Below are positions 32,716 through 34,660 of a DNA stretch of 37,765 nt, piece by piece. The notes under the pieces were generated by a model. The model was not told where the DNA came from. It ran no database searches and saw only the letters and a program-made list of their open reading frames with translations. Location of the stretch: IMG/VR virus record IMGVR_UViG_3300017776_000052, positions 1 to 37,765 of that record; one strand, given 5' to 3'. The translations under genes and the position numbers were made by a program. Origin of the DNA: a virus. How positions within the stretch are numbered: position 1 is the stretch's first letter; each line of letters starts with the position of its first letter.

Positions 32716-33870
32716 ATGAAGAAACAAATCCAGCACGAAGAGGTGATCGCGGCATATGCCCAGATCAAGAATAAATCAGAAGTAGCTCGCGCCCTAGGCG
32801 TGGACGCTCGAACCGTCTACAATCATGTGAAGCGTGCAGAGTCCGAGGGCAATGCTCCTTGGCTCACGCCAGCAGCCATCAGCCCCACCATGAACCTGCA
32901 CAAAACCACCGTGCAATACAATGCCGATGGAGACCCCATCCAAGAATGGCGCAGGCTCATCCCGCAGGCATCCGACATGGAGGCATTCGTAGACTCATTA
33001 TGTGAGCGAGTCCAAGGAAAGGCCCGTGTCAAAAAGAAGAAGGCCACCAAGACCGACAATGAATCCATACTTGGAGAGATCAGTATATATGATGCCCATG
33101 TGGGGATGTATGCAACCAAGGAGGAGACCAATGTCGCTGACTCCAATACCAAGATCATCACTGAGCGTATGGTCGCTACTGCCGAGAGACTCGCAGACCG
33201 CTTCCGCAAACCGGGTCGCATGGTTGTGACATTTGGTGGGGATATCCTCCACAGTGATAACCGCAGCAATCAGACAGAGAAGAGCGGGAACGTCCTTGAT
33301 GTCGATAGCCGCTACTCCAGAGTGATCGACTCCGCAGTCGCCGCCTGCACTTCGGTGGTTGAAATTGCCGCCACAGTAGCAAAGCAAGTGGATGTGGTGA
33401 TCGTGGAGGGCAATCATGATTGGCATTCTTGCGTCTGGCTCGCTCGAGTCCTGAAGGCATTCTACGCCCAGTGCCCCAATGTGAATGTGGTTATGCAAGC
33501 CTCAGACCGTAAACACATCGTCCACGGGGACAATCTCCTCGTCTGGAGCCATGGCGATGGGGTCGCAGCTAATCAGTGGCAGTCAGTTATCGCCGCTGAG
33601 TTCGCGCCTCAGTGGGGTGTTACCAAGCATCGCCACCTGAAGATGGGCCATGTTCATCATAAGAAAAAGAACACGCCAACACGGGTGATCACTCAGACCG
33701 CTAATGGATGGGAAGAGCAACGTGGACTCCTCGTGGAATACTTGCCAGCACTGTGCTCTACTGACGCATGGCACGCTGAGAAGGGTTATCTTGGATCAAT
33801 CCGGGCAGCTACGGGCTACGAGTATCACTCGACCAAGGGACTTGTCAGCAGATTCTACGAACACGCATAG
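32716..33870 (+). CDS. Metallophosphoesterase with N-terminal helix-turn-helix
   Basis: A 384-aa protein. Residues 1-40 are a helix-turn-helix (KSEVARALGVDARTVYNHVKRAE). The rest is a calcineurin-like phosphoesterase: DAH at 126-128, GGD ending at Asp176, GNHD around 232-235, SHGDG, and GHVHH with His312 and His314, a full two-metal site. It would hydrolyse a phosphoester, perhaps on DNA given the fused DNA-binding domain. Similar two-domain proteins are frequent in phages but their substrate is not known to me. It is followed within 6 bp by the methyltransferase. Confidence 0.85.
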   Translation: MKKQIQHEEVIAAYAQIKNKSEVARALGVDARTVYNHVKRAESEGNAPWLTPAAISPTMNLHKTTVQYNADGDPIQEWRRLIPQASDMEAFVDSLCERVQGKARVKKKKATKTDNESILGEISIYDAHVGMYATKEETNVADSNTKIITERMVATAERLADRFRKPGRMVVTFGGDILHSDNRSNQTEKSGNVLDVDSRYSRVIDSAVAACTSVVEIAATVAKQVDVVIVEGNHDWHSCVWLARVLKAFYAQCPNVNVVMQASDRKHIVHGDNLLVWSHGDGVAANQWQSVIAAEFAPQWGVTKHRHLKMGHVHHKKKNTPTRVITQTANGWEEQRGLLVEYLPALCSTDAWHAEKGYLGSIRAATGYEYHSTKGLVSRFYEHA

Positions 33871-33875
33871 AATAG

Positions 33876-34613
33876 ATGAATGAGTTGGCTTTATTCGCAG
33901 GCGCTGGTGGAGGAATACTCGGAGGGCATCTCCTTGGATGGCGCACAGTGTGCGCTGTCGAATGGGAGCCCTACCCAGCATCAGTCTTGGTTGCCCGTCA
34001 AAACGAAGGAACACTCCCAGCTTTCCCGATCTGGGATGATGTTCAAACCTTTGACGGAAAACCTTGGAGAGGACGTGTTGATGTCATTTCTGGAGGCTTT
34101 CCCTGTCAGGACATCTCTTGCGCGGGAACAGGTGCAGGAATCGACGGGGAGAGATCCAGTATGTGGAGACACATGGCAAGAATCATCAGTGAAGTTCAAC
34201 CCAAACACGTCTTCGTGGAAAACTCACCAATGCTTGTGGGAAGAGGACTTACCCGAGTACTCGGTGACCTTACCAAAATGGGGTATGATGCAAAATGGGG
34301 TGTGCTGGGAGCGCATCACGTTGCCGCCCCTCACAAGCGGGACAGGATCTGGATCGTGGCCAACTCCATGCACCCGGGATTGGAAGGGAGACAGAAAGCC
34401 GGAAACTCTAATCAAGTCAGGAAGAAACTCGACGAACGGACTCCCGGAAGCGGTGACGGAAGCAGAGGGAAGGCATTGTGGTGGGAAACTGAACCCAACG
34501 TGGACAGAATGGCTGATGGGGTGGCCTGTCGGGTGGACAGACTTAAGGCCATCGGAAACGGACAGGTTCCACAAGTGGCCGCACTCGCATGGAGATTGCT
34601 AAGTGAGCAGTGA
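33876..34613 (+). CDS. DNA cytosine-C5 methyltransferase (compact)
   Basis: A 245-aa C5 methyltransferase: motif I ALFAGAGGG (residues 5-13), motif IV GGFPCQDIS with nucleophile Cys77, motif VI ENS, motif VIII RDRIWIVA, and motif X KAIGNGQVP (226-232). It methylates cytosine with S-adenosylmethionine, probably to protect phage DNA from restriction. The target-recognition stretch between VIII and X is only about 60 residues, shorter than in typical C5 enzymes (about 330 aa). No cognate nuclease gene is seen next to it. A second frame (33880-34602) covers nearly the whole gene. Confidence 0.9.
   Translation: MNELALFAGAGGGILGGHLLGWRTVCAVEWEPYPASVLVARQNEGTLPAFPIWDDVQTFDGKPWRGRVDVISGGFPCQDISCAGTGAGIDGERSSMWRHMARIISEVQPKHVFVENSPMLVGRGLTRVLGDLTKMGYDAKWGVLGAHHVAAPHKRDRIWIVANSMHPGLEGRQKAGNSNQVRKKLDERTPGSGDGSRGKALWWETEPNVDRMADGVACRVDRLKAIGNGQVPQVAALAWRLLSEQ
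33880..34602 (+). CDS. Overlapping +1-frame protein within the methyltransferase gene
   Basis: A 240-aa frame fully nested in the methyltransferase gene, shifted +1, with start codons 4 bases apart (ATGAATG). It does not look like an accidental frame. It begins MSWLYSQALVEEY, has SSWKTHQCLWEEDLP near residues 111-125 and VTLPKWGMM after it, a SWPTPCTRDWKG patch, and ends GGKLNPTWTEWLMGW plus GWTDLRP. I recall this Trp-rich architecture as a recurrent uncharacterised phage protein; this is memory, not a search. Function is unknown; both frames appear to be under protein-level constraint. A ribosomal frameshift fusion is less likely, since both frames have their own start and stop. Confidence 0.65.
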   Translation: MSWLYSQALVEEYSEGISLDGAQCALSNGSPTQHQSWLPVKTKEHSQLSRSGMMFKPLTENLGEDVLMSFLEAFPVRTSLAREQVQESTGRDPVCGDTWQESSVKFNPNTSSWKTHQCLWEEDLPEYSVTLPKWGMMQNGVCWERITLPPLTSGTGSGSWPTPCTRDWKGDRKPETLIKSGRNSTNGLPEAVTEAEGRHCGGKLNPTWTEWLMGWPVGWTDLRPSETDRFHKWPHSHGDC

Positions 34614-34620
34614 ATAAAAG

Positions 34621-34660
34621 CCCGGCTAGGTTGATTAACTTAGCCGGGTTTGCTGTTGTT
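34621..34660 (+). terminator. Terminator-like hairpin after the methyltransferase
   Basis: CCCGGCTAGGTT and AACTTAGCCGGG pair over 12 positions with one G-T wobble and a 4-base GATT loop, followed by a T-rich but interrupted run (TTTGCTGTTGTT). It lies 7 bp after the overlapping gene pair and 30-odd bp before the next gene, so it probably ends early transcription here. Confidence 0.65.

Follow-up and report, generated by a model that had tools for sequence, protein, structure and literature searches.

Two long, almost completely overlapping reading frames in a stretch of tailed-phage DNA are both protein-coding and under selection, and the use of both frames is genuine and shared by homologous loci. 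The frame-0 product, alpha, carries the catalytic motifs of a C5-cytosine methyltransferase; the +1-frame product, beta, is a real gene that contains motif IX and probable target-recognition cassettes. It is very probable that the locus encodes a single methyltransferase in two chains, a catalytic alpha and a beta that probably selects the DNA sequence.

Structure of the locus

The window, that is, the whole stretch of DNA analysed, is a virus record of 37,765 bases. A scan of ten of its proteins identified it as tailed-phage DNA, with a tail protein, a RecT-like annealing protein, a DnaB-like helicase and terminase subunits; none of these ten could be recognised as a restriction enzyme. All features described here are located on the plus strand. 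An exonuclease-like gene upstream of alpha ends at 33,870, and alpha starts five bases further on. Alpha is an ATG-initiated C5-cytosine methyltransferase ORF of 245 aa (33,876-34,613) with motifs I-VIII and X and no recognisable motif IX. Beta is a +1-frame ORF of 240 aa, also with an ATG (33,880-34,602), and consists of an N-terminal part, a probable target-recognition cassette and motif IX. Its N-terminus is MSWLYSQALVEE (starting MSWL). The near-complete overlap and the common start ATGAATG (33,876-33,882), in which the alpha ATG is at 33,876 and the beta ATG at 33,880, were found as originally predicted.

Motif IV of alpha, PCQ with the catalytic cysteine, is located at 34,101-34,109 (sequence and alignment A4), and motif VI, ENS, at 34,218-34,226, where E115 and N116 are invariant in the same alignment. 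Motif X, GNGQVP, lies at 34,554-34,571 (alignment A4) and is encoded by beta instead in six loci. Two motif pairings between the frames had been part of the original prediction, and one of them stood: ENS lies opposite SWKT. IGNGQVP (34,551-34,571) lies opposite PSETDRF and not GWTDLRP, which is found opposite RVDRLKA about seven codons before IGNGQVP.

Right after both stops, a pattern scan detected a terminator-like stem-loop of 15 pairs (34,618-34,651), which is possibly a terminator; the count of stem-loop-like sites in the region was not above that of shuffles. No RNA families were found near the alpha/beta locus.

Conservation of the +1 frame and its start

When the synonymous codons of the window's methyltransferase ORF were shuffled 200 times, the +1 frame never stayed open (0 of 200; about 4.3 stops expected), and the same shuffling of 122 homologues left it open in 0.2% of trials on average. 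Homologue searches confirmed the expectation that the +1 protein recurs in other phages. A constant frame relation among homologues, which had been proposed as a check, was also observed. Viral loci found with alpha alone as query had a beta homologue in the same +1 frame in 80 of 80 fetched cases, and beta was in +1 of alpha in all 80 of the bacterial-genome loci fetched with the beta alignment as query. The latter come from Pseudomonas, Acinetobacter, Bradyrhizobium, Akkermansia and others, and are probably prophages. Of the first 164 loci, 163 had beta in +1 of alpha, and the remaining one was a phage whose alpha ORF is broken; no beta homologue lacking an overlapping alpha was met among the loci fetched. 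Solely to widen the homologue search, one tblastn query used a beta sequence written by hand to resemble a consensus.

Some loci have interrupted alpha frames. In Mycobacterium phage Jinglebell (L084, 1326-2031) the alpha frame is broken and the region is annotated as opposite-strand hypothetical genes; similar records (Llama, Ochi17 and others) gave a two-piece match. In L189, L191, L222 and L167 a stop interrupts alpha while beta is open; these may be prophage copies in decay, or the stops may be errors in the sequence.

Of 132 distinct loci, 130 retain the sequence AATGA, which contains the beta ATG. Four bases 5' of this ATG, the alpha codon is ATG in 74, GTG in 23 and TTG in 12 of the 132, the rest being mostly non-start codons; loci without an alpha start at the usual place have one 3-14 codons upstream. 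A Shine-Dalgarno-like match is present in 74 of 130 loci, with a spacing peak of 8 nt to the beta ATG, equivalent to 4 nt to the alpha start. The window's own alpha/beta start has no clear Shine-Dalgarno sequence, so that translation must begin there through coupling with the upstream gene or through other signals. In Salmonella phage S9-5 (L268, 910-1503), a gene annotated as an adenine methylase overlaps the alpha/beta gene start by four bases.

Frame-specific selection

Following the approach of OLGenie, substitutions in 47 independent pairs were sorted according to what they change in each of the two frames. As pairwise counts to which no multiple-hit correction was applied, beta omega was 0.567 (0.49-0.64) by NN/NS and 0.303 (0.27-0.34) by SN/SS, against 1.54 and 0.97 in the unused +2 control frame. 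The per-frame check suggested with the original prediction thus places beta under purifying selection (0.30-0.57; control 0.97-1.54), and constraint is not confined to the methyltransferase frame.

Regionally, motifs I-VIII of alpha are under strong constraint (omega 0.06-0.31). Over alpha residues 164-205, the gap between motifs VIII and X, alpha is neutral (0.98-1.20), whereas beta is constrained (0.46-0.57). Both frames are constrained in the last segment, containing motifs IX and X, and beta is here at its strongest (0.19-0.34). For beta residues 1-65, SN/SS indicates constraint (0.26), and NN/NS a weaker one (0.75). Purifying selection therefore acts in both frames of the shared DNA, with alpha neutral only in the VIII-X gap.

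Division of motifs between the two chains

Alpha matched PF00145 (3.9e-31), with the match confined to residues 4-167, and phrog_363 (3.3e-67). It contains motifs I, IV (PCQ), VI (EN), VIII and X of the C5-cytosine DNA methyltransferase catalytic domain. It differs from a single-chain PF00145 enzyme in that motif IX and the recognition domain are absent from alpha; motif IX is in beta, and so, probably, is the recognition domain. Between motifs VIII and X the alpha alignment is hypervariable. The predicted fold consists of an ordered catalytic domain, a region of very low confidence (176-229) and an ordered C-terminal motif X helix, and the model aligns to about 168 of the 324-327 residues (about half) of M.HaeIII and M.HhaI.

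Motif IX of beta, LNPTWTEWLMGWPVGW, is located at 34,489-34,536 and was assigned from BLASTP, beta omega and 190 loci. The beta sequence KLNPTWTEWLMGWPVGWT matches the segment containing motif IX in the single-chain methyltransferase of Mycobacterium phage prophi_GD43-6 (GD43-6 gp22; BLASTP E 2e-5); the tie to the classical motif runs via this phage single-chain enzyme and not via a direct significant alignment with M.HhaI. Every one of the 190 distinct loci whose two frames are intact has motif IX in beta (recognised by pattern in 186 and by eye in 4), and it was not found in alpha. Motif X in the same 190 loci is in alpha in 182, in beta in 6 and in neither in 2, in which alpha ends early.

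Beta had no match in Pfam, NCBIfam or PDB, and its structure model is poor (pLDDT 58, pTM 0.23), too weak for a fold search. It matched phrog_1008, a 'DNA methyltransferase' family (9.4e-26), a result that is partly ambiguous because the family also matches frame-0 methyltransferase segments. PHROG_1008 covers both +1-frame betas and frame-0 parts of single-chain methyltransferases, and may mix two frames or fragments.

The WPTP cassette of the window's beta (residues 160-202; 34,357-34,485) is a probable target-recognition unit. This assignment is based on the selection pattern at this place (alpha neutral, beta constrained), on an hhalign match (96.6%) to the corresponding segment of the prophi_GD43-6 single-chain enzyme, and on cassette reuse. 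By pattern count, 1, 2, 3 and 4 WPTP cassettes, with a median of 40 aa, occur in 74, 66, 17 and 5 beta proteins, so that most betas, not all, have one to four. Near-identical cassettes recur at differing positions across betas: WPTPTVCGNYNRKGA.KTSGDGLAT is cassette 1 of 2 in L045 and 2 of 2 (as WATP) in L098. The N-terminal identity filter in this comparison is unaligned, a crude guard against counting close relatives, and the position shifts are independent of it. In phages B22, Raleigh and prophi_GD43-6 (L259, L260 and L261), an alpha-frame chain has motifs IX and X, and LLPTP-type cassettes also occur in +1; this layout is possibly a third way to divide the enzyme, or consists of remnants.

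In one clade of six loci (L004, L005, L007, L024, L025 and L064), alpha stops right after motif VIII and beta runs through motif IX into RLKAIGNGQVP or the like, so that motif X is beta-encoded. Alpha and beta jointly still cover motifs I to X in these loci. Such a change of chain by motif X is hard to explain unless alpha and beta are one working enzyme.

A two-chain methyltransferase and its alternatives

In an ordinary C5 methyltransferase the order is motifs I-VIII, recognition domain, IX and X. The proposed two-chain enzyme would divide this order between the frames. Alpha would be the catalytic large domain: motifs I-VIII, which include PCQ and ENS and provide SAM binding, and a C-terminal helix that contains motif X. 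Beta, starting four bases after alpha, would supply the DNA-recognition small domain, composed of motif IX and one or more WPTP cassettes that appear to occupy the position of the target-recognition domain. Both chains would be translated from the adjacent starts on one mRNA; the common start is compatible with a fixed alpha:beta ratio, which may be inferred from it. We infer that the chains would assemble into the active enzyme, that swapping the beta cassettes would cause different DNA sequences to be methylated, and that the likely use would be protection of phage DNA against host restriction.

The least credible alternative is that the +1 ORF passively shadows a methyltransferase gene that is itself conserved and codon-biased. 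Conserved alpha residues do produce some +1 similarity, such as in the motif VI-VIII stretch of actinophage enzymes, but shuffling shows that an open +1 frame is improbable by chance, beta omega is well under 1 with the control frame at or above 1, and beta is constrained where alpha is neutral. Shuffling, omega and regional selection together refute this explanation, unless alignment or selection artefacts account for all three. A double programmed frameshift could yield one full-length methyltransferase, read in frame 0 to motif VIII, in +1 through the recognition domain and motif IX, and in frame 0 again for motif X. The joined order would match that of the ordinary enzyme exactly. However, beta's own ATG is kept, many loci have well-placed Shine-Dalgarno matches, and the part of beta upstream of motif VIII would go untranslated, yet residues 1-65 are constrained. 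This explanation was put aside on the frame-specific and regional selection results and is considered very unlikely.

It is equally improbable that beta is a separate partner, such as a regulator, inhibitor or anti-restriction protein, by which the enzyme is not completed. No homologue with a known function was found for the N-terminal part of beta, which leaves room for an additional role, but motif IX and a recognition domain under constraint are found in beta rather than in alpha, and motif X moves between the chains. Since beta holds the parts that alpha lacks, namely motif IX and what are probably recognition cassettes, a second enzyme chain is preferred over a modifier. The original prediction had proposed that the second product could assist, inhibit or specify the methyltransferase; specification and the short recognition stretch of alpha pointed in the right direction, while the idea of a modifier was too vague and missed the second chain.

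Beyond the two-chain enzyme itself, the chances are about even that these loci form a widespread phage class in which catalysis and sequence choice are placed in two frames and cassette exchange within a dual-coded gene alters the methylation pattern. The choosing chain of such a class would resemble a specificity subunit, with a variable number of exchangeable cassettes.

The locus shows, with a clarity that is unusual among natural examples, two full-length proteins encoded by one DNA segment, and is backed by about 200 loci and frame-specific selection; the parts belong to a well-understood enzyme, which makes the arrangement directly testable. Gene callers often retain only one frame, so that a 'methyltransferase' and a 'hypothetical protein' appear at the equivalent place across phages. 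In Pseudomonas phage phPA-G (L266, 1505-2233) the beta frame alone is annotated, as a hypothetical protein; at the equivalent place in MW202462 (L267, 1501-2241) alpha alone is annotated, as a cytosine specific methyltransferase. A recoded clone of an annotated methyltransferase could seem inactive because beta was lost.

Comparison with known methyltransferases

The gene for the small chain of M.EcoHK31I is nested, in a different frame, within that for the large chain, as Lee, Kam and Shaw reportedly found in 1995, and M.EaeI is a two-chain system like M.EcoHK31I. The large chain of M.EcoHK31I has motifs I-VIII and X, with the recognition domain predicted in it, and the small chain has motif IX (PMC3404938). 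The window shows the same split, with I-VIII and X in alpha and IX in beta, and is likened to M.EcoHK31I by this motif arrangement. It differs in that the probable recognition cassettes are in beta and the corresponding alpha segment is neutral. Moreover, the overlap here extends over about the whole gene from a common start, there are 1-4 cassettes, and the arrangement is common, both in phages and other viral contigs and in bacterial genomes.

In M.AquI, the large chain has motifs I-VIII, and motifs IX-X are in the small chain together with the distal part of the recognition domain (PMC3404938). Reassembly of split C5 methyltransferases is known for natural and for artificial ones, including fragments of single-chain enzymes (PMC3404938, PMC5944983). 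Only the six loci with motif X in beta resemble M.AquI, and in these beta overlaps all of alpha, unlike in M.AquI; the window itself differs in having motif X in alpha.

In the multispecific C5 methyltransferases of Bacillus phages (SPR, phi3T, rho11s), motif IX is preceded by recognition units, each of about 40 aa, arranged in tandem. Similar tandem units of about 40 aa, probably for recognition, are found here; those enzymes are single-chain, whereas the units here belong to a second chain that overlaps the first. In more distant phages, nested pairs occur in which beta starts later. Among them, gp56 and gp57 of Paenibacillus phage Arcticfreeze are a nested two-frame pair, both annotated as DNA cytosine methyltransferase, and gp57 has WPTP-type cassettes and motif IX; the gp57 start, however, lies about 200 nt inside gp56 and not at its start. 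A Bacillus anthracis prophage orphan methyltransferase was predicted to be M.EaeI-like in specificity, and overlap is unmentioned in that paper (PMC4722110). The out-of-frame HNH of ShiLan in phage methylases (PMC11855218) is a different thing, an inserted endonuclease.

The phage arrangement was not found described in a search of the open-access literature. As M.EcoHK31I and M.AquI are already two-chain enzymes with this motif split, the kind is not new. What is new here is the spread of the arrangement, the probable recognition domain in the overlapping chain, and the one to four cassettes that recur at differing positions.
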